Positions 1-49,802 of a stretch of DNA of 49,802 nt are shown in pieces. The position numbers and the translations under genes are program-made. The notes under the pieces are model-generated. The model did not search any database, had not been told where the DNA came from, and saw only the letters and a program-made list of their open reading frames with translations. Every line of letters starts with the position of its first letter. Position 1 is the first letter of the stretch. The DNA is from a virus. Where the stretch lies: positions 1 through 49,802 of the IMG/VR virus record IMGVR_UViG_3300028802_000022; one strand, 5' to 3'.

Positions 1-127
1 ATAGCCTCAAGGACTTCGTAGGTTACGCAACAATCTAAACCATTGTATACCCAGTCTTTTTCTATACCTTTAAGTTGAGCTGGGGTTATCTTGTCTGTCT
101 GGATGATTTTCATTCAAGGTCCTGTCG
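1..127. repeat. Terminal redundancy, left copy
   Basis: Bases 1-127 are identical to 49676-49802. The copy covers the first codons of the DNA polymerase (leftward) and the last codons of the HNH gene, so the two contig ends join into one continuous coding region. A length of exactly 127 matches a common maximum assembly k-mer. The repeat is therefore best read as the signature of a circular or circularly permuted assembly, not as a proven physical direct terminal repeat. Confidence 0.95.
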
Positions 128-442
128 TGAGCTTATGTGTCCGTGATGTACATGATCTATAACTTCAAGATTGTGTTTCTGATTATCCAGCACATCACCA
201 TTTATGTGATGAACATCCATATCAATAGGTGGATGACCAACGATTGCATGGTGCATCGTAACCTGCTTGGTCTTTTGTTTCCCGTCTAATTGTCTATAAC
301 TTATTCTAGTCTCAACTGCTTTGCCTTTGCCTTCCCTCTCTCTCATGTACCAAGAGTATCCAGCAAGCATGCTAAAATCTTCGTCATCAACTATAGCATA
401 GACTAGTCCATTATACCTTGATGTTACAGGTATCTTGCGCAT
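110..442 (-). CDS. HNH homing-type endonuclease lying inside the split polymerase locus
   Basis: A 110-aa small HNH nuclease. The N-terminal part resembles the DNA-binding region common in phage HNH/AP2 endonucleases (AIVDDEDFSMLAGYSWY, about residues 16-32). The nuclease motif follows at about residues 64-91: HH at 64-65, HHING at 78-82 and the DNQKHNL segment carrying the last Asn. Its ATG directly abuts the TGA of the UDG-exonuclease gene, and its own TGA overlaps the polymerase ATG (ATGA at 110-113). An AAGGA Shine-Dalgarno lies in the end of the upstream gene. Known HNH enzymes of this type nick or cut DNA and spread by homing. The position between Exo II and Exo III of a polymerase is the notable point. 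Target and activity are inferred. Confidence 0.88.
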   Translation of the reverse strand: MRKIPVTSRYNGLVYAIVDDEDFSMLAGYSWYMREREGKGKAVETRISYRQLDGKQKTKQVTMHHAIVGHPPIDMDVHHINGDVLDNQKHNLEVIDHVHHGHISSRQDLE

Positions 443-1453
443 TCAATCATCCTTCTTTATGGTTCCTATCTTCTCCCTCATTCCTTTCCATGCCCCTTCG
501 TTGGTATAGACAGAGCCAAGGAACCCTAAGGACTTTAGGCTCTCTGGATAGATCGCATGATGCAAGAGCATGGTATCTTCCTCGGCGTTCCTAACACCTA
601 TTCTCCAGGCTCGGTAGATGAAGGCGATATCGTAGAGTCCGTTTTGGAAAATCTTAGGGATTGGTCGCTGGAGAATGTCTTTAATAACTTTGTATACTTT
701 ACGCTCAACATCCACAGATGGCCAATAAGATCTCCCTGATCTACGGACGACAATTCCTGGAATGACAATAGCAATATCTTTTCTTGGGGCGAACCCAATG
801 CAGGTAATTGCTTTGCCTGAAGTTTCAATATCCACAGAAAGTCTTTCGCAGCTCCGGATATATCGTCGATCGAATTCATAGATATCCTCCAAGGTTGGTT
901 CAATCCAGATTTGTCGTTTGGGTAATTGGATTTCAGAGAACAGGGACTCTCGTTTACCTTTGATAAGATCCATTACAGTGACTGGACGCAATGACCATTG
1001 ACGGAAGATAGCCGCTGGATGGTAGGTTGGTAAGATCTTGTAGCCAGTTACTGTGTGGGTTGACATCTGAACTGTGCCGCGGATCTTTGAGATAGATGTC
1101 TTACCTAGCATTGCCCATGCAGCTGTGTTGCCCATGGCAATGATGACGTTTGGGTTTACTTCGTCGATCTCATCGGCAAGGCGCTCGAGTTCACCACGGA
1201 ATTGTTTATGGACGTAGCCCTGTTTGCCAATGGATGGATAGCCATAGATGCCCTCGGACTTGATACTACATAAGGCTTCGATCTTATTTCCAGGCGGGCG
1301 GAAGTTGAAGACGTTGGTTAAGAAGCAGTCGGATCGTTTGATCCCGGCCTCGTTGAGCATACGGTTAAGCTCCCAGCCTGTTGGACCGACGAAGGCCTTA
1401 CCTTCACGTTCTTCTTGCTCACCGTAAGCTTCGCCCAGTAGAACAATGCTCAT
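443..1453 (-). CDS. Uracil-DNA glycosylase-like domain fused to the N-terminal part of a 3'-5' exonuclease (Exo I and Exo II)
   Basis: 336 aa with two domains. Residues 1-165 look like a family 4/5 uracil-DNA glycosylase: GEAYGEQEEREGKAFVGPTG near the N terminus and TYHPAAI at 143-149. The N-terminal Fe-S cysteine cluster usual in family 4 is absent, and the usual Pro of GEAPG is Tyr, so glycosylase activity is uncertain. Residues 200-336 are the start of a DnaQ/DEDDy proofreading domain: Exo I SVDIET (D208, E210) and Exo II FQNGLYDIAF (N271, D275). The chain stops before Exo III, which is found instead in the downstream polymerase gene. UDG-exo-polymerase fusions as a single chain are known in phages (SPO1 polymerase). 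Here the fusion is cut by the HNH gene. The ATG lacks a clear SD and sits 7 nt past a UUCG hairpin. Confidence 0.88.
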   Translation of the reverse strand: MSIVLLGEAYGEQEEREGKAFVGPTGWELNRMLNEAGIKRSDCFLTNVFNFRPPGNKIEALCSIKSEGIYGYPSIGKQGYVHKQFRGELERLADEIDEVNPNVIIAMGNTAAWAMLGKTSISKIRGTVQMSTHTVTGYKILPTYHPAAIFRQWSLRPVTVMDLIKGKRESLFSEIQLPKRQIWIEPTLEDIYEFDRRYIRSCERLSVDIETSGKAITCIGFAPRKDIAIVIPGIVVRRSGRSYWPSVDVERKVYKVIKDILQRPIPKIFQNGLYDIAFIYRAWRIGVRNAEEDTMLLHHAIYPESLKSLGFLGSVYTNEGAWKGMREKIGTIKKDD

Positions 1454-7505: not shown

Positions 7506-7792
7506 TAGAGTCTCCGTTTAAACTTGGTCATCATAGGCGAGACTATGCTCATGATGTTGAAGTTGGATTTAGGGGCCGAGCCAGTATCGACTTCGTAGTG
7601 GTCGGGCCAATCAGTCGGTGGGGGTCCAGGTGGTGGTACATCTAGCTTCCCAAGCGAGAGATGCCAATAGGGATAAGCCCTATGACCTGAGGTAGGAATG
7701 ATCCAGCCTTCTTCGTCGCCGATTTGAAGCTTCTCGGCAATGTCAAAGGCTGGTTCACCCCTGACCTTATGTAAGATCAGGTAAGCACTCAT
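7505..7792 (-). CDS. Conserved phage hypothetical protein
   Basis: 95 aa opening MSAYLILHKVRGEPAFDIAE and continuing GDEEGWIIPTSGHRAYPYWH, a layout seen in many podovirus early operons. A proline-rich turn follows, and the chain ends KFKRRL. ATG coupled to the upstream stop as ATGA. Function unknown. Confidence 0.68.
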   Translation of the reverse strand: MSAYLILHKVRGEPAFDIAEKLQIGDEEGWIIPTSGHRAYPYWHLSLGKLDVPPPGPPPTDWPDHYEVDTGSAPKSNFNIMSIVSPMMTKFKRRL

Positions 7793-8298
7793 TTACCATG
7801 AACCTTAAGGTAGGCAGTGACATCCTTTTGATGGTCGATCACTAACTGCCTTGTTTTCTTTTCATCCGTTGGGGTTTGGTTATAGATTTCCCTCATGAAG
7901 TCCCTGTGACGTTTCTGGACCAGTTGATACTTTGTTAGTTCAGCACGGGCGGGAGCAGCCCCAGAAAGCTTTAAGGCATCTTGGACGCTCATGTAGCCCG
8001 TTTCCTTAGCCAGTTCCATGATTTCTTTACGCTTCCCATAGAGTCGCATCCAATTACTGGCCGTGCTTTGGCTGAACTTGAAGTTATCTCTTAGCCACGG
8101 ACCCCACTTGCCACGAAACACTCTGTCCTTTGCTTTAAGTAGGTATCCGCCAGCGGCTATTGCGCTATTTAAAGCGTCGTGAGAAGAGTCAACTGCATCC
8201 CTTGCGCAGGTGCTGATCTTACTGGCCAATTCGGATAGCTCGATCCTATGCCTGTCTGTGGAGTAGACAACTTGTTCGGTACTTGTATGTATTTGCAT
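7789..8298 (-). CDS. DUF3102-like DNA-binding protein
   Basis: 169 aa from ATG 8298 (GAGGT 8 nt upstream); an in-frame GTG at 8325 has no SD. The middle carries AIAAGGYLLKAKDRVFRGKW, then GPWLRDNFKFSQSTASNWMR, the signature of DUF3102-type proteins: a helix-turn-helix-like segment (S-x-S-T-A-x-x-W-M-R-L) used by phages and plasmids in ParB/KorB-like contexts. A role in early gene control or partition-like DNA binding is inferred. The C terminus is a long basic helix. Confidence 0.7.
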   Translation of the reverse strand: MQIHTSTEQVVYSTDRHRIELSELASKISTCARDAVDSSHDALNSAIAAGGYLLKAKDRVFRGKWGPWLRDNFKFSQSTASNWMRLYGKRKEIMELAKETGYMSVQDALKLSGAAPARAELTKYQLVQKRHRDFMREIYNQTPTDEKKTRQLVIDHQKDVTAYLKVHGK

Positions 8299-8303
8299 TG
8301 GTT

Positions 8304-8372
8304 CTACCTCATCGGTACTTGACACTGGGTTAAGATTACGATTACGATCACCAGGAAGATTACCTTGTTCAT
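8304..8372 (-). CDS. 22-residue membrane or lipoprotein-like micro-gene
   Basis: ATG 8372 overlaps the previous TGA as ATGA, with AGGA 7 nt upstream; TAG at 8304-8306. The peptide starts MNK, then has an unbroken hydrophobic run (VIFLVIVIVIL) followed by TQC, so it resembles a minimal signal/lipobox peptide. The stop falls just before the SD of the next gene. Its position and coupling make it more than chance, but it may only serve translational coupling. Confidence 0.48.
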   Translation of the reverse strand: MNKVIFLVIVIVILTQCQVPMR

Positions 8373-35844: not shown

Positions 35845-37813
35845 GGCAGATTACGTTCCATATTCAACCGTCAAGCCCGAGGAACTTCGTAGGGCTGACG
35901 AAAAGGTACAGATTGGCTTCCCTGGGGTTGAGTTCCATAACTCTATTGGCCAAGCCGTAGCTGGCGTTGGCCGCGGAATGGAAACAGTTAGTCATGCGAC
36001 CAAGCTAGTAGCGGATTCATTTGATAATCTTGGCGCAAACTTTTCTAAGGTCGGGGAAACTCTCTGGAACCGAGCTATTGGTCTACAGGATGTCCAGAAT
36101 CAAACTACTCAGACCAAGGCCGAGATCGAATACGATAAATATGTTGGCGAGAAACAGATAGCCTTTAATAAGCTCCAAGGCGACGCTGCTAATGAAGGGG
36201 CTTTGAAAGCTCATCTGAAGGATATTGAAGACGCACGTACGAAGATGCTAAAGAATCTTCCGAACGAAGCTGTAAAGAAAGGATTCGAGCGAAGCACAGC
36301 TAGCTCTATTGGCCGAGTTGGAATGCAAGCTGCGGAGCATGCTGCTAAGGAAACAAGGAGATCATATATAGAATCTTCTGAAGCCAGGGTAGATCAGCTT
36401 CAAGATCAGATATCCAAGGAAACTGGTATTAAGGAAACCGCAGATAAAGCTAAGAAAGTCCATGATGAAATTTTTGGTAAGCAAGCCCCAGCTAAGGGAT
36501 GGACCTTAGATGTAGCCAATAACAACTTCAGGAAGGTCCTCGGTGATGCCTATGCTTCACAGATTGCAACAATTGCCAGGGATGATCCAACTCTTGCTCT
36601 GAAGATGTTACGGACTGAAGAGAATAAGGCCTTGATTCCACAACCTAAGTACGACGGGTTAATGGAACATATTCTAGGGATGGAGAGAGTACAAGTATCT
36701 AGGAATATTGGTAATAAAATCCAGGATGAAAACCCAGATGGTACATTGGAAGAGAAGAAGGCAAAGGCCAAGGAAATGGCTGATAAATATCCACATCAGC
36801 CACTTCTTGCCGACGATGCAGTTAGAGTAGTTGAGCAAAGGCATGAGGCTCATCGGAGAGAGATTAGACAACAAGAAGAGAGAGATAAAGAAACTGTAGA
36901 ACAAGAGCTGTATGGCTTCGGTAACAAGGAAGGAAAGATTCCAACTAAGGTTGAAGACCTCTGGGCTAATCCAGAAACTCGAAAGGCTTGGGAAAGATTA
37001 TCTCCAAAGGATAAGAATCGAGTTGCCCAAATTCTAGCTAGGTCAGCTAAGGGAGACTACCCAGACACCCCGATGGCTAGGACCAGGATGTGGGAACTTC
37101 AGGGGATGCATGTAAATGACCCTGCTAGATTCAGGGACCTTGATTTGCTTCAGGAAGAAATCCCTTGGACGATGAGAACTCAACTTAGGGACCTGCAACT
37201 TAAGGTAATCAAGGAAGGAATCAAACTTGAGAACGATCCAAAGACCACTGCTGCTATAGCTAAGATGCGTGATATCCTTCCAAAGGACATTACTCCGGCA
37301 CATAAAGACAAATGGAACACATTCACTGGGTTGGTTCGTGAGGGCTTAAAAGCTGAGTATGAGCGGAGAGGGTACGATAAGCCATTGAGCGAAGAGGAAA
37401 TAAGAACTCTTGGTAAGACCTTACTAGAGAAGATGCCTGGAACAGCTGGTTGGTGGTTTGGATCAGATAAGCCACTGTGGCAGACCCTTAAAGAAATTCC
37501 TGAGGCTACTCTAGATGGAATGAGAGAAAGATGGCCTAATGAATCTGTGGAGCAGCTTGCTCAAAGATATCGACGAACGATAATCGCCGATGAATATCAA
37601 AAATATACCACTACCAAGACTCAACCGAAGCCTCCGGTGGTTACGGCTAAGCCTCCGCCTGAGCCACCTAAGCCTCCGCCTGAGGAACAGCAAGGGCCGC
37701 AGAAGCCAGCAGAGAAACGTGGGGAATATCTTGCTAGAAAGGCAGCTGAGTTTAGAAGTCGTCTGATTGGTGCTGATCGACGTGCGCGAGAGGAAGAGGC
37801 TAAGAACAAGTAA
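35837..37813 (+). CDS. Internal virion / ejection protein (gp15-like)
   Basis: 658 aa, mostly helical. Repeated charged helices (DEAHRREIRQQEERDKETVE-like region near residue 350) and a proline-rich segment near residues 595-625 (KPPPEPPKPPPEEQQ). Second of three ejection-protein genes by order; likely forms a periplasmic tube with the giant protein. Confidence 0.7.
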   Translation: MPRADYVPYSTVKPEELRRADEKVQIGFPGVEFHNSIGQAVAGVGRGMETVSHATKLVADSFDNLGANFSKVGETLWNRAIGLQDVQNQTTQTKAEIEYDKYVGEKQIAFNKLQGDAANEGALKAHLKDIEDARTKMLKNLPNEAVKKGFERSTASSIGRVGMQAAEHAAKETRRSYIESSEARVDQLQDQISKETGIKETADKAKKVHDEIFGKQAPAKGWTLDVANNNFRKVLGDAYASQIATIARDDPTLALKMLRTEENKALIPQPKYDGLMEHILGMERVQVSRNIGNKIQDENPDGTLEEKKAKAKEMADKYPHQPLLADDAVRVVEQRHEAHRREIRQQEERDKETVEQELYGFGNKEGKIPTKVEDLWANPETRKAWERLSPKDKNRVAQILARSAKGDYPDTPMARTRMWELQGMHVNDPARFRDLDLLQEEIPWTMRTQLRDLQLKVIKEGIKLENDPKTTAAIAKMRDILPKDITPAHKDKWNTFTGLVREGLKAEYERRGYDKPLSEEEIRTLGKTLLEKMPGTAGWWFGSDKPLWQTLKEIPEATLDGMRERWPNESVEQLAQRYRRTIIADEYQKYTTTKTQPKPPVVTAKPPPEPPKPPPEEQQGPQKPAEKRGEYLARKAAEFRSRLIGADRRAREEEAKNK

Positions 37814-40800
37814 TGCCTATTGATAACGCTAGAATTTTTGACTTGATGGATGAGCAGTTTAAATCTGAAGGAAGGTACGACGTTGTCAAAGGCATAGAGG
37901 GAGATAAGAAGAAAGCCGCGGAATCTATAGCTATCGAGAATGATACCGGAGCGGACTCCAAGAGGGTTTATGGTGATTATGATAGCTTCAGCAAGAGAAG
38001 AAAGTCTGAGATAGCTCAAACTCTTGTTGAGGATGACAAGTGGCTGTTAGAGTATGTTAAGAAGAATCCGTTAGCTAGCACTGTTAGCAATGATGATTGG
38101 CATAATCTTAGTAACTTCACCAGCACAGCAAGGAGACTTGTAGAAGTAAATCCAATTATTAAGCTTTATAAGAATGCAAGATATCTTTATGATATAATCT
38201 ATCCTGGGGATTCTTCCTACTTCATGCGTGGGTTTGTAACAGGGCTAACCCAGAATAATCCCGATCTAGGTGCTGAATTCGTCGAAGGCATGAGCTATAA
38301 CATGCCTGAGTTCTTTCAACCGAAGATGTTCTCTGGGGCGAAAGCAATTAGAGACTTTGCTGCCTCAATTAAGCCCGAGGGATATGAACGATCCACTACG
38401 GATATGTGGAATGTTCATGGTGTTGGTGATGCATTTGCTTTTGGAATGGAAGCATTTGGCGAAGCTGTTTCATCGATGGTTCCTGGAGCTATAGGTGGCC
38501 TTGCTGGAACAGCTGCTGGTGCTGCTACGCCTGTTCCCGGCGGTGCCCTTATAGGTGGTATAGCTGGATTAGGGAGTGTATCCTATGCAATGGGATATGG
38601 AGAGCTTTATAAAGCTCTTAAGGCCGAAGGAATAGACCCTGCGATAGCTTCTAAATACTCAACGGCATTTGCCGTCCCGATTGCTGCTCTAGATGCAATC
38701 AGCATGAAGATGATTGGTCTTAAAGCTCTTACAGCGGGTATGAAGAAGGACCTAACAAAGTATGTAGCTGTAAGGATTGCTAAGGAAGTTGCTAAGGGTG
38801 CAACAACAGAAGGCCTTACTGAGACTGCTCAAGAGATTATCAAGGACGCTGTAGTTTCCTATGCGGCCGATAAGCAATTTGGAACCGAGGAACAGATCAA
38901 AGGCTGGATTGAGTCTGGTGTTATCGGCGGTTTGACTGGCGGAATTATTCAAGGAGGGGCTGCTGGAGTAACTGGACGAAGGGATGTTAATAAAGACCTT
39001 CAAGATGTCAGAAAGACTGCGGATGCGACCAAACGAGTTATAGAGAATGCTGATCCGTGGATCAAGGCCGGGCAGAAGCCGCCGATAGGGCTTGATCCTG
39101 TCATTGACCATATGCTTATGCTAGACTCCAAGGAGAGATTGGAAGTTCTAGATGCTATTATAGAGGATGGTGATAAGGCCGAGACTAAAGAACTCAGCCC
39201 TACCTTATGGCAAGAGCTCAATAAGATCATCTTTGAGAAGAAACAAATTGAGATTCGGTGGGACGCTGTCAAGTCCATGTACGGGGACAAGCTACCCGAG
39301 GCCGATGATAAGCTCTTAGGGTTTGTTCCAAATATCCAACAGCAGTTTGCTAATTCAAATCTCACCGGTGAGTCTATCAAGGTCGACATTGCTGATTGGG
39401 TTGGTAAGGTCGATCCTGAAGTCAATAGGATGCTTCATGACGACTTGGCATTCTCAGATGGAATGTCTATCAATGAGGCTAATACTAAGCCTAAGGTAGA
39501 AGACATCTCTGAAATCCCTGAGACGGAAATCCCTGGTCTGTCTCAAGAGCTTGATAAGCCTTATAGCCTCAAGAAAGGCGAAGAGGGGGTTTATGACATT
39601 CTAGATGAGCATGGAGCCTTGGCGACTCGGGTTAGAGTCGTCGAGAATGAAGGAGGCAAGAATCTTCATATTCACTTTAGAACAGGGCAGATTGACGTAG
39701 CTGGGCTTCGGACCTTGATGAAGCAGCTGAAGGAAGAGTTTCCAGATGCTGAAACTATAACAAGCCCGAAGATGCCTGGGGTGGAAGCTCTAAGAAGAGG
39801 ACTCGAAGGAAGTAATATCACCGTAGGTATGCCATTTAGGGTTAAGGAATCGACGGTCGATATAGTACGAAGGTCCGCAGGTTTAGAACCCTTATTTGAC
39901 CTGCCTAGAGAGGGGCCCAGGGCTGTTAGGCTTGTTAGAAATAAGGGCATACCCATTGCTCGTGGCGATGTTAACTTTACTATAACCGATGAGGTCGGCA
40001 ATCCTATTGGTGAAGTCACAGGTGCTTTAAGGCAAAAGGGAAGGGATTATTATATAGACTGGATTGGTGCTCCGTTAGATGATCGAGAGGTTGGTAGTAA
40101 TCTTGTCAATAAGCTTGGGCCGAAGTTGATTAGAGGTTTGTTTAGAGAATTCAAGAGAGAACTTCCAGGGGTAAAAACTTTAACTGGCTTTAGGGTCACA
40201 GGTGCCAGAGGAACTTATAGCCAAGGGGAAGTTGTTCAGATTAATCTTGCTAGGCTTATGGAGGAACAAGAGAAGGCTCCGGCTGGATGGGAGGGCGTAG
40301 AGCCAGCGGGTCCTGAAACTCAGAAGCTAGTCGATCTCACTCAAGGTTATACACAGTTTGGTCCTAAGCTCTGGGCTCAGAGATCAAGAGAATGGACCCC
40401 GCAGGAACTGGCCCTTGAGAAGAAGATCACTAAGCTGATGGACAAGATCGTTCCTCGGGAGGTCAGAGTCTACGGTGCTGAGGATATTCGAATAGGTTCA
40501 GGCCATCGCCGAATCTCTGGTGTGTTTCAGGCATTCCATGATCGGCGACCATTGATTATGTGGTCACTGCCTGATCCCGAAGGCTTTGCTGGGGAACATC
40601 CAGAAGGAACGGCAAGGCATGAGGCACTACATTTCCTTAGGCAATATGGATATATTAGAGAGAATGAATGGAAGATCCTAGAGAAGCTTGTTAAGGACAA
40701 CAATCTAATTAAGAAGCATGGGATTGACACTAGGTATTGGTATGCTGATGAAGAAATTCAAATAGAAGAAGCCATTGCTGAGGAATTCAGGACATGGGAA

Positions 40801-43800
40801 GGCAGAGGGTCTGATCCTGAGCATTGGGGAGCCAAGGTATTTCAGAGGATACGGGAAATCCTTGATGCAATTAAGTCTGCCTACAGGGAATATCTTGGCC
40901 GAGAGCCAACTGTCAATGACATCTTCAGGGACATTGATATCGGCCGAACCGGAAGGAGGACTCCAACAGCGGGTCCGATGGCAGGCCGATTTGGAGACCC
41001 GGGGTTACATCGAACTGTTAATATTCAGCCGAAGGCGATGGAGCCAATAGGTAAGCCCGAAGATATTCTTCGAGATGTTGGCTTTACTGATAGTGAGATC
41101 AGGCGTGGAATTAGCGCGGAGCAGCAGGAGAAGGTACAAGAAGGATATTTGTTCTGGGGTGGAAGCTTGACAAAGGCTACTCCTGAGCTACTGGAACAGT
41201 TTAAGAAAGAGGCAGCTGAGGATGTAAAGAGGAAGGCCGAAGACACAAAGAAACTGAACGCTGCATTTGCTCAGAAGGCAGCGTATCCACCATTAGGCCA
41301 TATCTTAGGTTCTGATTGGGGAGCAGGAAGCAAAGGAAATACTCCCAAGGAATATAGAGATACGGCATATCGAACCCTGGAGCAGAAATATAGCTTCAAT
41401 CAAATAATGGTCGGGAAGGTCGAGCGTGCCCTAGCTCGACAGCCTGCGCCATATGCCCCAGGCGGACCGGTTGAAGGAGAGGTCCCGACCTTTGAGCCTG
41501 GGGCCATTATGGATAAGGCTCGATATGCCAAATACATGAGGCATATCAACGAGAGAAATAATGAAGATGCCCAGAAAGAACTTGAGGATGCAGAGAGGGA
41601 GGTCCGACGAAAGCAGAAGCCCGAGTGGAAGGCTAAAGAAGCCGAGATGAGGATTGAGGTTACTAAGGAAATTGCCAATAGACCAGATTGGAAGGTTAGT
41701 CAGTTCTTCCGTAACGGAATGTTCTTTGGGATGGACTCTAAGTACCGCCCGAAGCTCGATCCTCAGTTCCTTACTCCAGAGCAAGCCGCAGGTTTGCCTG
41801 ATGGATTTATTCGTAAGGGTGGGATGGACCCTGATATGCTTGCCGGAAGCTTTGGGTATTCTTCTGGACAGGCCATGGTCAATCGTATGGTCGAGTTCGA
41901 GCGAGTCAAAGGCAAGCTCGGTCCGAAGGAATTCTTCGATGAGATGGTTAAGCAAGAAACCAATCGAAGGATGGAGCTTAAGTATGGAAAGCTGGCCGAG
42001 GAAGTTCTTAAGGAGGCCATGGATCATGTTATTGGCACTACCCAGATGGACCTTCTTCATGAAGAAACAATGGCATTGGCCCTAAGGGCTGGGCAAGAAT
42101 TCTCATTAACTAAGGAAGACTTTAGAGATCAGGCAGCATTAAGATTCCATGAAGAAACTGCTTCTCAAATATCCATGCGTGGGTACTTTAGGGAAATGTA
42201 TCGGGCTGGCAAGGCAGCTGAACTAGCGTTTCTTAATGGCGATTTTGTTGAGGCATTCAAGCAGAAGCAACAGCAGGTTCATCTGTTTACCTTGGCGGAG
42301 ATGGCCAAGAAGTTCGAGAAGACTCAGAAACAGCTCGATGAAATAATCAAGAGGTATAATAAGCGAGATCATGATGTAAACAAGATTCCTCCAGAATTTG
42401 TAGAATGGATTCATTCGATTCTGTTTCAGATCAATCGGCCGCCCAGGAGACTCCCAGAGGATCTGGCTAGGTTGATTGCAACCAGGGATTCCAAGTCACT
42501 TGAGGCCTTTGTTAACGATAAGAACTACATTGTAAGTGGTAATGAAGAGTTTGAGACTGAGGTTAATCCCAAGCTGGTAGTCTGGGATAGGCTAATGGAG
42601 GTTGATCAAAATGGGATTCCTACTTACAGCAAGAAATTCGATGAGCTTACAGTAGGTGAGGTTAAGCTCATCAATATAAGCTTGCAGAGCTTGAATAAGA
42701 TTGGTAGGGATGAAGGAAAGTATAATACACAATATGAATCTAGAGTCAAGAGAGACTTAATTGGTCAGATGAAGAATCAGTTATCGAGACTGAGAGAGAA
42801 AGCCGAAACAAAGGAAGGGAGTATAAGGGCTGGATTGCAGTGGATACATGGTGGATTGGTTCAGCTAGAAGGTTTGTTCGATCGTTGGGATAAGGGTAAT
42901 AGAAGTGGATTGTTTACGAAGATGTTCTCGTTTCCATTGTCTAAGGCCTCGGATGACTTCTCTGTTATGCAGAGAGAATTTGCCAGAAGGATAGTGGCGC
43001 TAGATAAGAAACTCGGATTGACCTGGAAAGAGATGAGAAGGCTGGTTGATAACGATGTGTTTTATAACCCTAAATGGATGGAGCTTGATGAGAATAAGAA
43101 GCTAATAGACAATGGCAAATGGCTACAGATGACTAAGCAGCATGTCCGTGGAGTATTGTTGAATTGGGGCAATCCAAGTAATAGAAAGAGGCTAGCTGAG
43201 GGATATTTTACTACTGAGGAAAAGATACAAGCTTGGCTTGATAAGGTTGCTGACAAGAGAGACTACGATTGGGCCGCAGCGGTTGGAGAGATGTATAAAG
43301 ATATTCAGAAAGACTCCGATGAGATGACTTATCGAATGTCTGGGACTCTGATAGAGTTGCTGCCTTTGCCTAAATTCCAAACTCCACATGGGGAGTATCG
43401 AGGGTATTACTATCCGATTATCTATGATAGATCATTGGAGGGTGGTCCTAGGCTAGCAGAAGAAAGACCTCCACCGACAGTGCAATTGACTTACACTGGA
43501 TGGCAGCGGAAGCGAACTGGATCAGCCGGGCCACTGGATTTAAGCATAGGAGAGATGGGTAATCATATTTCGAGAAGATTGAAGGACAATGCATTTAGAG
43601 AGGTTCTACATAATATACATAAGATATGGTCCGATAAGGAATTTAGAAAGGCTGTTAGAAGGTATCATGGGGATTACGCTGTTAATATATTGGATTCGGC
43701 ATATAAAGATTTCGCAGGACATACAGGTATAACATCTGGTGTATCTAATGCAGCCAATAAATTTGCTGAGATGATTCGGCAGAATACGATAGGGGCATTG

Positions 43801-44907
43801 ATTGGTCTGAACCCTGGGACTGTAGCTAAGCATGGACTTTCGGCCCTGCTACAGAGTTGGAAGGAGGCTGGGATACTCAAGGAGGATTTTTATAAGTCTA
43901 TGGTTCTATTGAGTACTCCAGGTGTTCGAGATAAATATGTAAAGTTCATGATGGAAGGGGGAATGGTTGGGGATCTTGACTTCAAGGGATCAGGTACCCT
44001 TCAGCGAAGACATCAGCATTATCAAGAAACTATAGGTGGCGCTGGGGATATTCAGTTACGGAGTTTGACCTTAAGGGAGAAGTCCCTTCGAATAGGGTCA
44101 ATGCCAGTAGCTATGTCGGATATGTATTCTTCGCAGATTCTGTGGCATGCTACGTATACCAAGATAATGGATAAGCTTGATGGCACAATGTCAATTGAAG
44201 AAGCTCATGTTCAGGCTGAAGAGCAAGCGAACTATGCTGTAAGAAGAACCCATGGATCGACGGCTATTACCAGTCGACCTGAGTTCATGCGAAGCCAATC
44301 GGCTATGACGAGGTACTTGACTTCGTTGTATGGATTCTTCAATCATATTTATAATCGATTCTATCGTATGGCATGGACAGCGAAGGACTTGAGATATGAT
44401 TGGTGGCACCAGGAGAAAACTAGAACGGAAGTCTTGAAAGGAGCAGCTGATCTGACTACCGATTTCATGATGTATATTGTTGGTCCGGCTTTAATTGAGA
44501 CAATAGTGGTTGAAGCTGCGATGAGTGCTGACTGGGAAGATATGGGCATTGGAGATTTGTTACAGAAGGGGATGGTTCATACAGTATCTGCCTCTGTTCC
44601 ATTGGTTAGAGAAGTAGTTCATGCTGTTGTAACTGGGCATGATCCAGCGGCAGGTTTGATTGGAACAGCCATGAAGGGATTCACTGATGTGGCTAGGGAC
44701 TGGACTAAGGAAGAAATGGATAATGGAAAAGCCATTCAGCATGGCCTTACATTGCTTGCGATTTCGACTGGATTAGGTAGTACGCAGGTTGCTAGGTGGG
44801 CGAGGTTCTTCTACGATCTTCAGACTGGCGAGCAGGAGCCACAGGACTTCGAGGAATACTATAGGGCATTTAGGTCTGGTTCTATAGAAATGAGGAAAGG
44901 ACACTAA
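37813..44907 (+). CDS. Giant internal virion protein with HExxH zincin motif (gp16-like, polyvalent)
   Basis: 2364 aa, TAATG start. Residues about 222-265 form a Gly-zipper membrane-active region (GAIGGLAGTAAGAATPVPGG). Near residues 930-1000 a metallopeptidase motif is visible: GTARHEALHFLRQ (H936, E937, H940) followed by IEEAIAEEF as probable third-ligand helix, then AYREYLGREPTVNDIFRDI, typical of large polyvalent phage proteins. Long helical stretches follow. The C-terminal 300 residues have hydrophobic helices (FMMYIVGPALIETIVVEAAM). Position fits T7 gp16. The protease may cleave virion or host proteins after ejection; this is inference. Confidence 0.8.
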   Translation: MPIDNARIFDLMDEQFKSEGRYDVVKGIEGDKKKAAESIAIENDTGADSKRVYGDYDSFSKRRKSEIAQTLVEDDKWLLEYVKKNPLASTVSNDDWHNLSNFTSTARRLVEVNPIIKLYKNARYLYDIIYPGDSSYFMRGFVTGLTQNNPDLGAEFVEGMSYNMPEFFQPKMFSGAKAIRDFAASIKPEGYERSTTDMWNVHGVGDAFAFGMEAFGEAVSSMVPGAIGGLAGTAAGAATPVPGGALIGGIAGLGSVSYAMGYGELYKALKAEGIDPAIASKYSTAFAVPIAALDAISMKMIGLKALTAGMKKDLTKYVAVRIAKEVAKGATTEGLTETAQEIIKDAVVSYAADKQFGTEEQIKGWIESGVIGGLTGGIIQGGAAGVTGRRDVNKDLQDVRKTADATKRVIENADPWIKAGQKPPIGLDPVIDHMLMLDSKERLEVLDAIIEDGDKAETKELSPTLWQELNKIIFEKKQIEIRWDAVKSMYGDKLPEADDKLLGFVPNIQQQFANSNLTGESIKVDIADWVGKVDPEVNRMLHDDLAFSDGMSINEANTKPKVEDISEIPETEIPGLSQELDKPYSLKKGEEGVYDILDEHGALATRVRVVENEGGKNLHIHFRTGQIDVAGLRTLMKQLKEEFPDAETITSPKMPGVEALRRGLEGSNITVGMPFRVKESTVDIVRRSAGLEPLFDLPREGPRAVRLVRNKGIPIARGDVNFTITDEVGNPIGEVTGALRQKGRDYYIDWIGAPLDDREVGSNLVNKLGPKLIRGLFREFKRELPGVKTLTGFRVTGARGTYSQGEVVQINLARLMEEQEKAPAGWEGVEPAGPETQKLVDLTQGYTQFGPKLWAQRSREWTPQELALEKKITKLMDKIVPREVRVYGAEDIRIGSGHRRISGVFQAFHDRRPLIMWSLPDPEGFAGEHPEGTARHEALHFLRQYGYIRENEWKILEKLVKDNNLIKKHGIDTRYWYADEEIQIEEAIAEEFRTWEGRGSDPEHWGAKVFQRIREILDAIKSAYREYLGREPTVNDIFRDIDIGRTGRRTPTAGPMAGRFGDPGLHRTVNIQPKAMEPIGKPEDILRDVGFTDSEIRRGISAEQQEKVQEGYLFWGGSLTKATPELLEQFKKEAAEDVKRKAEDTKKLNAAFAQKAAYPPLGHILGSDWGAGSKGNTPKEYRDTAYRTLEQKYSFNQIMVGKVERALARQPAPYAPGGPVEGEVPTFEPGAIMDKARYAKYMRHINERNNEDAQKELEDAEREVRRKQKPEWKAKEAEMRIEVTKEIANRPDWKVSQFFRNGMFFGMDSKYRPKLDPQFLTPEQAAGLPDGFIRKGGMDPDMLAGSFGYSSGQAMVNRMVEFERVKGKLGPKEFFDEMVKQETNRRMELKYGKLAEEVLKEAMDHVIGTTQMDLLHEETMALALRAGQEFSLTKEDFRDQAALRFHEETASQISMRGYFREMYRAGKAAELAFLNGDFVEAFKQKQQQVHLFTLAEMAKKFEKTQKQLDEIIKRYNKRDHDVNKIPPEFVEWIHSILFQINRPPRRLPEDLARLIATRDSKSLEAFVNDKNYIVSGNEEFETEVNPKLVVWDRLMEVDQNGIPTYSKKFDELTVGEVKLINISLQSLNKIGRDEGKYNTQYESRVKRDLIGQMKNQLSRLREKAETKEGSIRAGLQWIHGGLVQLEGLFDRWDKGNRSGLFTKMFSFPLSKASDDFSVMQREFARRIVALDKKLGLTWKEMRRLVDNDVFYNPKWMELDENKKLIDNGKWLQMTKQHVRGVLLNWGNPSNRKRLAEGYFTTEEKIQAWLDKVADKRDYDWAAAVGEMYKDIQKDSDEMTYRMSGTLIELLPLPKFQTPHGEYRGYYYPIIYDRSLEGGPRLAEERPPPTVQLTYTGWQRKRTGSAGPLDLSIGEMGNHISRRLKDNAFREVLHNIHKIWSDKEFRKAVRRYHGDYAVNILDSAYKDFAGHTGITSGVSNAANKFAEMIRQNTIGALIGLNPGTVAKHGLSALLQSWKEAGILKEDFYKSMVLLSTPGVRDKYVKFMMEGGMVGDLDFKGSGTLQRRHQHYQETIGGAGDIQLRSLTLREKSLRIGSMPVAMSDMYSSQILWHATYTKIMDKLDGTMSIEEAHVQAEEQANYAVRRTHGSTAITSRPEFMRSQSAMTRYLTSLYGFFNHIYNRFYRMAWTAKDLRYDWWHQEKTRTEVLKGAADLTTDFMMYIVGPALIETIVVEAAMSADWEDMGIGDLLQKGMVHTVSASVPLVREVVHAVVTGHDPAAGLIGTAMKGFTDVARDWTKEEMDNGKAIQHGLTLLAISTGLGSTQVARWARFFYDLQTGEQEPQDFEEYYRAFRSGSIEMRKGH

Positions 44908-47175: not shown

Positions 47176-48425
47176 GGTGCAGTGAACTGTCGCATCCCTT
47201 GGCGATTGATGTGGTTACAGATAATCATTCTTGAACCTATTAATGTATCAAGCATCGGCCTAACTGACATCGACGAAGTACGTTCTCTCATGAAGTTGAT
47301 TATTAGATGCTCATCAACTGGGCCTTTGTGATTACGAACGAAGTGAACGACTTCGTCCATTACTCTAGAGTCTGGTGCTATTGATCCAGTTTGGAATATC
47401 AAAGGCATTTGTTTCTCTGACTGAAGCAACCAGCCCATTGCCCTGTTGAAGTCTTCAACCTCAAGGATAAGGTCGTTGGTTCGATCTACAGAAGCGATCA
47501 TAGTTAGCTTAAGTAGATGCGCCCACCTGCGGGTATTGTAGTGGGTCAGCTTCGGATGGTCTGGAATAGGTGGTTGGCCTAGGAGCTTCCAGTTATGCAT
47601 AGCCTTGGCGAAGTCTGGGGTGAAACGGAACTCCCCTATCAAAGTGCTGATGATCTTGATATCGTGGATTAGGTTAACTGGCTTGGGCATAGGCGGAGTG
47701 TTGAATACATCTATCACTGGGCGCTCTGAAGCGTAGACCATGAGGACCCTAGACATGAGTCCTTGTTCCCAGACGTAGTCCTTTAGAGTATGGATAAGGT
47801 TTGAAGGGGTGGAACCAGAGAGGATGTTAAGTTGTGGCCTGGGGATTTTAATTCTGATGTTAGATACTCTTCGGCCTTCGGAGTAAGGATTGACATCATA
47901 GAATTCTACAAGCGAAGCTACTAAGGCTGAGTCATACTCAGACATAAATGCAGAGAACTCATCAGCTACGGCTACGAGGGAATTGTATTCAATTGGCGGA
48001 TGAGGAATGTTTGCAATGAATCGTTTGGCCTCGTTCATGTAATCGCTTAGGGCTGCTTTGGTCATTGAGGTAGCGCCCCAGTAGGTTTCGGGCAGAGCTT
48101 CACGGACTATGTTAGAGGCAGACATGATAGCTCGAGACTTCCCCAAGCCTGGGTTGCCTACGAGGAAGGTGTAGATATTCGGATAGATAATCGATCCGGT
48201 ATTAGCCCATACCTTTTGTTCCAAGGTAGCCGCAACCATTGTGATCGCAGACCATCGTCGCCAGATCTCAGGCGACTCGAGATTAGCTGTATGCTCTACG
48301 AAGCTTTCGATCCAAGAATGGCATCGGCGGCGTCCTGCGGCGTTTGTCGCCGGGGCTATATCCTTTGAGTCCGTCTGGATTTGCTTCACCGAAATCGCCC
48401 CAGTTCCAACCGGTTTTACAGCCAT
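47172..48425 (-). CDS. DUF3987-like replicative helicase/primase-type ATPase
   Basis: 417 aa from ATG 48425. An in-frame GTG at 48389 with GGGGCG upstream would give 405 aa. SWIESFVEHTANLESPEIWR, RWSAITMVAATLEQKVW, then Walker A LVGNPGLGKSR and Walker B-like SLVAVADEFSAF are typical of DUF3987 phage ATPases placed next to polymerases, probably the replicative helicase. The N-terminal codons overprint the last 143 nt of the polymerase gene. Its stop overlaps the convergent late operon stop. Confidence 0.8.
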   Translation of the reverse strand: MAVKPVGTGAISVKQIQTDSKDIAPATNAAGRRRCHSWIESFVEHTANLESPEIWRRWSAITMVAATLEQKVWANTGSIIYPNIYTFLVGNPGLGKSRAIMSASNIVREALPETYWGATSMTKAALSDYMNEAKRFIANIPHPPIEYNSLVAVADEFSAFMSEYDSALVASLVEFYDVNPYSEGRRVSNIRIKIPRPQLNILSGSTPSNLIHTLKDYVWEQGLMSRVLMVYASERPVIDVFNTPPMPKPVNLIHDIKIISTLIGEFRFTPDFAKAMHNWKLLGQPPIPDHPKLTHYNTRRWAHLLKLTMIASVDRTNDLILEVEDFNRAMGWLLQSEKQMPLIFQTGSIAPDSRVMDEVVHFVRNHKGPVDEHLIINFMRERTSSMSVRPMLDTLIGSRMIICNHINRQGMRQFTAP

Positions 48426-49788
48426 AAGGAATCTCTAACATTCTGTTGTGTTTAAGGGGGATGGCGTGTCGAAGTTGGTTCAGGATTTTTGGAACGATCT
48501 CATCTTCTTTCTTTTCTGGATACTGTACTAGGATCGAGTCGTGATTTTGCATTAGGAGTTGGCAGTCATTGGCACGAAAGACGTTGAGCATTCCTTGGTT
48601 GACGATGTCTGATAGAGAACCTTGTGGATCGAAGTCTAGGGCTTGGCGAACCACATCATCGGAGTCTCGGCGCCCAAAGAAGTAGCGCTCACGACCGGTG
48701 AGGGAGACTAGTCGGCCGTGTGCTCTGATCTGTTCCTCGATGTAGGTGTGCCATATTCGATGAGCAGGGAAGGCTTTGAAGTATTTCTGTTGGAAGTCTA
48801 TGATGATCGCAATGTCAGTCTTAGTTTGAGTGGAGAGTGTCTGAGGTCTGCCTCCATAATTAGAGCCATGCCCAATGATCTTGCACATGTGGCGCCTAGA
48901 GTGATGTCGATAATATGGTTGTTCGGCGAGTTCTCTATCTCCTTCCAGGTCCCCAGGCCAAGGAAGATTGGGCCAACATATTCTGGCGACAGCCGTGTGT
49001 AGGTCTCCTGACTCACAGGCATCAAGATAATCGCCTCGTTTGAAGAGGTTCCATTCGATTGCTCCGATGACACGAGACTCTCCTTGTTCTGCATCAAAGT
49101 TCCCGAGCTTCATTCCATCATCGGCGATGAACATCGAGCGAAGCCCTTCCTCGATATTCTGTAGGTTGCCTCCGGTTCCGAACTCAGAAAAGGACGAAGA
49201 GAACCTACCGGTGGTGGTACCAGCGATGTTGTAGGAAGTTCTCATTCGACCGTCGGAGTCGATGGCGGTCTTGATTACTTCGAGGCGTTTCTTTAGATCA
49301 CGCATGTAGGTCATGTATTCGATTATGGTTCTGGCTATCGAGTAGGACTCCATACTTTCTAGAGCATCTCGATTGACTGAAGGTGCTCCAGTTTTAGTTC
49401 TATGTCTTCCGACCGGGATACGAAAGATATCATAGAAGAGACGACATAAGTCGGCGGAGCTTCGCCAGTTGAAACCAACAAAGCCACAACCCTCGCGGAC
49501 TATCCGTTCTAGGCGAGCCTCGGCTTCGTCGAGCTTGGCAAAGTATTCTTCTCTGACTTCGGCCCGACGCCATTCGTCGATCTTCACTCCACGTATTCGC
49601 ATCTCTAGGACAGGGCCTTGCAAGGCTCGGGAGAAGGCGTAGGTTCTAGAAGTGTAGTCGTTGAGTTGAGGAAGGATAGCCTCAAGGACTTCGTAGGTTA
49701 CGCAACAATCTAAACCATTGTATACCCAGTCTTTTTCTATACCTTTAAGTTGAGCTGGGGTTATCTTGTCTGTCTGGATGATTTTCAT
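48283..49788 (-). CDS. Family A DNA polymerase carrying only Exo III of the proofreading domain
   Basis: 501 aa. An Exo III motif WVYNGLDCCVTYEV (Y23, D27) opens the chain, while Exo I and II are in the separate UDG-exo gene. Polymerase motifs: A GNFDAEQGESR (D232), B RHMCKIIGHGSNYGG (R299, K303, Y311; the Pol I Phe762 position is H307), C MQNHDSILVQ (H416, D417). Start ATG shares ATGA with the HNH stop and has AGGA 6 nt upstream. The C-terminal 35 residues beyond WNWGDFGE are basic and overprinted on the helicase start. Replicative polymerase; proofreading would require assembly with the first polypeptide. Confidence 0.92.
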   Translation of the reverse strand: MKIIQTDKITPAQLKGIEKDWVYNGLDCCVTYEVLEAILPQLNDYTSRTYAFSRALQGPVLEMRIRGVKIDEWRRAEVREEYFAKLDEAEARLERIVREGCGFVGFNWRSSADLCRLFYDIFRIPVGRHRTKTGAPSVNRDALESMESYSIARTIIEYMTYMRDLKKRLEVIKTAIDSDGRMRTSYNIAGTTTGRFSSSFSEFGTGGNLQNIEEGLRSMFIADDGMKLGNFDAEQGESRVIGAIEWNLFKRGDYLDACESGDLHTAVARICWPNLPWPGDLEGDRELAEQPYYRHHSRRHMCKIIGHGSNYGGRPQTLSTQTKTDIAIIIDFQQKYFKAFPAHRIWHTYIEEQIRAHGRLVSLTGRERYFFGRRDSDDVVRQALDFDPQGSLSDIVNQGMLNVFRANDCQLLMQNHDSILVQYPEKKEDEIVPKILNQLRHAIPLKHNRMLEIPYGCKTGWNWGDFGEANPDGLKGYSPGDKRRRTPPMPFLDRKLRRAYS

Positions 49789-49802
49789 TCAAGGTCCTGT
49801 CG
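49676..49802. repeat. Terminal redundancy, right copy
   Basis: Identical to 1-127. Joining the two ends makes the HNH, UDG-exo and polymerase genes contiguous in one leftward operon. Confidence 0.95.

Follow-up and report, generated by a model that had tools for sequence, protein, structure and literature searches.

A phage family-A DNA polymerase apparently shared out between two chains within its proofreading fold, with changing gene cargo at the boundary

Introduction

Split phage enzymes tend to be explained as the chance result of a single homing insertion. In Aeh1, an HNH gene (mobE) lies with coupled junctions between nrdA-a and nrdA-b, the halves of one enzyme, and the split NrdA enzyme is active (PMC2988022); MobE is inferred to have caused that split, whereas at the locus described here the relatives show that the HNH gene did not. 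A replicative polymerase is likewise split in Aeromonas phage 25, where the nuclease gene seg43 lies between gp43A and gp43B, and in 44RR, where a non-coding spacer (IC-UTS) takes its place. In phage 25 the gene may have been split before the nuclease invaded it, and the gp43A and gp43B halves co-purify and are active (PMC2988022). These polymerases of T4-like myophages belong to family B, whereas the present one is of family A. OM43 phages MEP401 and MEP402, and most members of their group, have been reported to encode a family-A polymerase as two ORFs with a small gene of unknown function between them, but there the cut is inside the polymerase domain, no uracil-DNA glycosylase (UDG) domain is mentioned, and each exonuclease motif keeps to one chain (PMC10580990). 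ExnV1 (PDB 7r0t), from a thermophilic virus metagenome, is likewise a stand-alone PolA-type exonuclease chain, probably a truncated Pol I, and unlike the chain described below it carries the equivalent of Klenow Asp501 (Exo III) itself.

A UDG-containing phage Pol I has been described for PaBG (PMC7412058). Single-chain UDG-exo-PolA enzymes of this type, including the phiLo polymerase (PDB 9qhs) and that of Microcystis phage Mel-JY34, have the same domain order and motifs as the split pair treated here. They are, however, one polypeptide, whereas the pair is cut before Exo III and has an added Pol N-terminus of about 20 residues and a TIKRED-type C-terminus on the other chain. The phage group with the split polymerase is large and mostly uncultured. 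Phage Kuura is a cultured member, in whose description the split goes unmentioned (PMC9959647) and whose UDG-exo half is annotated as a hypothetical protein, an annotation that can now be corrected. In the literature, of which coverage was incomplete, no earlier report was found of a PolA cut inside the exonuclease fold. As described below, it is quite probable that UDG-exo and Pol form an obligate two-subunit enzyme with a DEDDy site completed in trans. The boundary between their genes gathers cargo, and the HNH gene now found there was not the cause of the split.

Organisation of the locus

The window (the whole stretch analysed, 49 802 nt of IMG/VR record IMGVR_UViG_3300028802_000022) carries a row of three minus-strand genes encoding a UDG-exonuclease protein (UDG-exo), an HNH endonuclease and a family-A DNA polymerase (Pol), the last being reached from the UDG-exo/HNH end across a 127-bp circular overlap (Table 1). 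Because the repeat is exact, the HNH-polymerase junction is continuous at both ends of the window. The same gene order, with other cargo, occurs in the independent contigs L001, L002, L003 and L034, which together with the overlap rules out an assembly artefact at the contig ends.

The UDG-exo stop codon is followed directly, in the same frame, by the HNH start codon (TGA-ATG), and the 3′-end of the HNH gene shares an ATGA with the start of the polymerase gene. Of the three proofreading motifs, two are on one chain and one on the other, with Exo I and Exo II on UDG-exo and Exo III on the polymerase. The initial annotation had given this arrangement, i.e. the motif positions, the HNH gene between the halves, both junctions and the separate Shine-Dalgarno-like sites, and it had named an assembly error near the contig ends as a finding that would refute it; the sequence bears out the former, and the latter is excluded as described above.

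Table 1. Features of the split polymerase locus (positions in the window).
Feature	Position	Strand	Remarks
Exact terminal repeat	1-127 = 49676-49802		Circular or permuted assembly; connects HNH to polymerase
HNH endonuclease gene, 110 aa, slot cargo	110-442	-	HNH_3 E 0.0012; catalytic HHINGDVLDNQKHNL intact
Shine-Dalgarno-like AGGA for polymerase gene	120-123	-	From sequence
UDG-exo subunit, 336 aa	443-1453	-	N-terminal UDG-superfamily domain (~1-170) and first part of DEDDy 3′-5′ exonuclease (~200-336)
Shine-Dalgarno-like AAGGA for next gene (HNH)	450-454	-	Within UDG-exo C-terminus (..TIKKDD-stop); from sequence
Exo II motif NGLYD (D275)	629-643	-	Asp without exception (124/124 split, 9/9 fused homologues)
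Exo I motif SVDIET (D208, E210)	821-838	-	Invariant in 121/121 covering distinct split loci and 9 fused homologues
Family-A polymerase subunit, 501 aa	48283-49788	-	N-terminus with Exo III; first 37 codons repeated at 1-113
Exo III motif YNGLD (Y23, D27)	49708-49722, same bases 33-47	-	Both residues without exception (124/124 split, 9/9 fused homologues)

Split and fused relatives

The wider scan gave at least 162 split loci, of which at least 124 were distinct. Among the distinct loci, 31 have a slot of at most 2 bp between the halves, two have slots of 29 and 56 bp, and 91 have slots of 134-1671 bp that are occupied by unrelated inserts. Slot-free loci such as L004/L011, L015/L016 and L017/L018 join the halves by ATGA, TGATG or TAATG overlaps. 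In the closest relatives of the window, the sisters L001 and L002, the two genes are likewise separate, and the slot holds unrelated ORFs of 132 and 116 amino acids. Single-chain homologues, expected from the initial annotation, do exist: at least nine were recovered (including Mel-JY34, MW202489, L182-L184, L187 and L188), all more distant, among the best 80 matches per query to the split proteins, a search in which near fused relatives could be missed.

On a tree of 109 rows (quick IQ-TREE search, LG+G4, SH-aLRT, without bootstraps), the split/fused label changes once, with an SH-aLRT of 100, the fused rows being distant and on long branches, some of them joined by possible long-branch effects. 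Empty and occupied slots interchange at least 20 times on the same tree. HNH cargo is scattered over nine separate rows, and HNH-less split relatives stand on both sides of the window. As judged from these comparisons, the split is old and common to the group and the cargo is recent and changing. Since this one old split exists in more than a hundred natural versions, some carrying cargo and some not, cause and occupancy can be separated.

Cargo of the slot

The HNH protein of the window scores 18.9 bits against HNH_3, below the Pfam cut-off of 24.8, and nine of the 11 PHROG families listed as its matches are annotated as HNH endonuclease. The gene is absent from the slot of all near relatives, and one partial relative was found in IMG/VR. 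It is probably of the free-standing intercistronic homing type.

Pfam searches of 101 slot ORFs gave HNH_3 (14), DUF7768 (12), DUF1937 (6), DUF4406 (4) and KTSC (3), and single matches to GIY-YIG, Endonuclease_7, methyltransferase and HTH families. In blastp, 52 of the 101 were singletons. A homologue of the L037 cargo gene lies outside the slot in the window, at 7789-8325.

Per unit length, the slot contains about 17 times as many HNH_3 genes as the rest of these genomes, as counted with Pfam HNH_3 on 48 whole records of at least 15 kb, the window excluded. Four of 25 matches fall into the slots, although these account for just 0.95% of the total length (binomial p 9e-5 on length alone, the tolerance of sites to inserts not being weighed), and with matches over the cut-off the count is 3/21 (p 0.001). 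A very strong enrichment obtained with an HNH profile built on slot sequences was discarded as circular.

Two neighbouring boundaries served as controls. Between the upstream 160-aa gene and UDG-exo, more than 100 bp was found in 51/80 loci, compared with 56/80 for the slot, whereas the polymerase and DUF3987 genes nearly always overlap (more than 100 bp in 2/80 loci). The slot thus behaves, HNH over-representation aside, as an ordinary gene boundary, because the upstream boundary gathers genes about equally often. The exact fit of the HNH gene to the gap was likewise rejected as proof of causation, since other inserts fit as exactly. The boundary between the 160-aa gene (1501-1983) and UDG-exo is itself a second cargo-accepting site, of up to 3.6 kb in relatives.

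The over-representation of HNH_3, which is also the commonest Pfam family among the slot ORFs, would fit a history in which an HNH or other homing endonuclease split the ancestral gene and was then lost or replaced, related nucleases continuing to re-invade their target. We rate this as somewhat less likely than not: the deepest occupied split rows carry non-HNH cargo and L176 is empty, the p-value ignores where inserts can survive, and 87 of the 101 slot ORFs are not HNH_3. The reading preferred here is that the UDG-exo/Pol boundary takes up cargo genes that come and go, an HNH endonuclease being the present occupant in the window.

The UDG-exo and polymerase subunits

UDG-exo matches the UDG family PF03167 (3.2e-22, 79.6 bits), with E8, G11, H145 and P146, of the motifs GE..G..E and HP, conserved as in the UDG superfamily (family 4-like). 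The four-Cys Fe-S cluster of family 4 is incomplete, as just two Cys columns are common (109/124 and 82/124 loci). The protein also matches phrog_17, DNA polymerase (3.2e-27), which covers both UDG-exo and polymerase as halves of one family, and Pfam and PHROG assignments are concordant. An AF2 model of the chain alone (mean pLDDT 80.8, residues 296-336 below 50) retrieved UDGs with Foldseek and, more weakly, the Klenow exonuclease 1kln. The match to exonuclease family PF01612 (0.038, 14.2 bits) lies below the cut-off of 23.6, as is expected because the domain is without its last motif.

In most split forms the canonical family-4 GEAPG reads GEA(W/Y)G, the Pro being kept in fused forms. The UDG domain may be a base reader instead of an active glycosylase.

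The polymerase matches PF00476 (DNA_pol_A, 3.8e-36), D232, D417 and K303, tested as catalytic-aspartate and O-helix positions of the palm/fingers/thumb domain, are invariant wherever covered, and its AF2 model (mean pLDDT 81.6, residues 24-31 below 50) retrieved KlenTaq/Bst with Foldseek (1e-19). Compared with the fused forms, it has about 20 extra residues (MKII.T...) ahead of Exo III.

Two further observations concern this subunit. Where E. coli Pol I has Phe762 in its O-helix, the window has His (H307, ~48868-48870, minus strand), as do all split (114/114) and fused (8/8) UDG-type polymerases covered; the literature found on this position describes Phe, Tyr and Leu classes only. The polymerase gene also overlaps the downstream DUF3987 gene in a different frame (48283-48425). 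The conserved DUF3987 motif SWIxxF begins, at the median, 23 nt ahead of the polymerase stop codon and is inside the polymerase ORF in 64/87 loci scored, so that some of the shared stretch apparently codes in both frames.

A probable proofreading site shared by two chains

A complete DEDDy fold was found on neither chain alone; the fold is shared out, and the D and E of Exo I, the D of Exo II and the Y...D of Exo III occur across the two chains. Wherever they are covered, these catalytic residues never vary, either in the split forms (124 distinct pairs) or in the nine fused ones, and N24 is as invariant as Y23 and D27 in the 124 loci. Such invariance favours a site completed in trans, because the lone Exo III on the polymerase chain would be useless without the other chain. 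The cut lies between the UDG-exo tail WK.MR..TIKRED and the Pol segment EKDWVYNGLDCC. In the single-chain AF2 models the UDG and polymerase folds are good and confidence drops at the two stretches where the partner should complete the fold, although with the shallow alignments used (16 and 14 rows) low pLDDT at the cut can also reflect shallowness. On this evidence the split enzyme looks real and conserved.

We propose that the ancestor had a single-chain UDG-exo-polymerase gene, which underwent one cut in the loop that leads into the Exo III helix. From that time on, a single message would have given two chains by coupled re-initiation, namely UDG-exo with Exo I and II, and Pol with Exo III, thumb, palm and fingers. 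The chains would associate so that D208, E210 and D275 of UDG-exo meet Y23 and D27 of Pol, and the replicative polymerase of this podovirus-like phage group would be a two-subunit family-A enzyme. The association and the exonuclease activity are, like homing by the HNH nuclease, inferred.

If the exonuclease were dead, or the halves acted apart, with UDG-exo as a repair factor and Pol without proofreading, the split would still be real. The PF01612 score below cut-off and the known divergent phage PolA forms without exonuclease (PMC11348598) are compatible with such a loss, but it appears unlikely, as Exo I and II residues are invariant wherever covered and the Exo III residues have stayed so in all loci though useless without Exo I and II. 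The in-trans site is thus retained as the preferred reading. A fuller version of it is favoured by a small measure: an uncultured podovirus-like lineage would have an obligate heterodimeric PolA whose proofreading site is complete only when the chains meet, kept from a single ancestral split; it would have evolved new termini that serve association and translational coupling, and HNH nucleases would have come to favour the boundary. Should the proofreading site indeed be formed by both chains, polymerase and exonuclease would be separately tunable by translation, and the pair would be a ready-made two-part polymerase for enzymology.

Translation of the two halves

UDG-exo ends in a conserved TIK(R/K)(D/E)(D/E). 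Its terminal codons contain a core Shine-Dalgarno sequence in 93/124 loci (background 0.207), and Arg is encoded there by AGR (AGA/AGG) at a frequency of 0.67, compared with 0.27 elsewhere in the gene. The core sequence and the AGR enrichment indicate that the conserved TIKRED-like tail also provides the ribosome-binding site for whichever gene comes next, polymerase or cargo. In slot-free loci, a core Shine-Dalgarno sequence just upstream of the polymerase start is missing in 12/31.

The polymerase stands in the same -1 relation in 27 of the 31 slot-free loci, which could point to recoding, by frameshift or stop read-through, of both frames into one chain. This is very improbable, because slot-free overlaps vary in frame relation and stop codon (all three of each occur); moreover, the 91 loci with long inserts often have whole genes between the halves, and genes coupled by re-initiation commonly overlap by -1 or -4. 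Two separately translated chains therefore remain the preferred reading.

The HNH gene and the origin of the split

The initial annotation took the locus for a homing insertion that had become a stable split enzyme. The part that stands is a split inside the proofreading fold with halves that look stable and functional; the part that falls is the HNH insertion as its cause. That the HNH gene homed into an intact UDG-exo-polymerase gene is suggested by its place exactly at the split point, with coupled junctions, and phage genes split by homing insertions are known (PMC2988022). We give this hardly any credence, because relatives without the HNH gene are split identically, the split is one ancestral change and HNH genes are sporadic. 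The annotation had itself named close relatives with the same two genes but no HNH gene as evidence against its model, and the slot-free loci L004/L011, L015/L016 and L017/L018 are such relatives; the sisters L001 and L002 carry unrelated genes in the slot. An uninterrupted gene in nuclease-free relatives, the mark of a homing endonuclease that split its host, was not seen, HNH-less relatives being split at the same point.

A self-splicing element (group I intron or split intein) in place of a plain gene boundary can be dismissed, for although introns and inteins with HNH nucleases do occur in phage polymerases (SPO1/HMU type; MIJ3 PolB, PMC6892783), no Rfam intron-family match, and no group I intron core, was found in 1-2000, the slot contents are unrelated ORFs, and slot-free relatives have no room for an element and contain none, which excludes an intein.

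Elsewhere in the window, the structural module contains a single ORF of 2364 amino acids (37813-44907), probably encoding a large internal virion or ejection protein.
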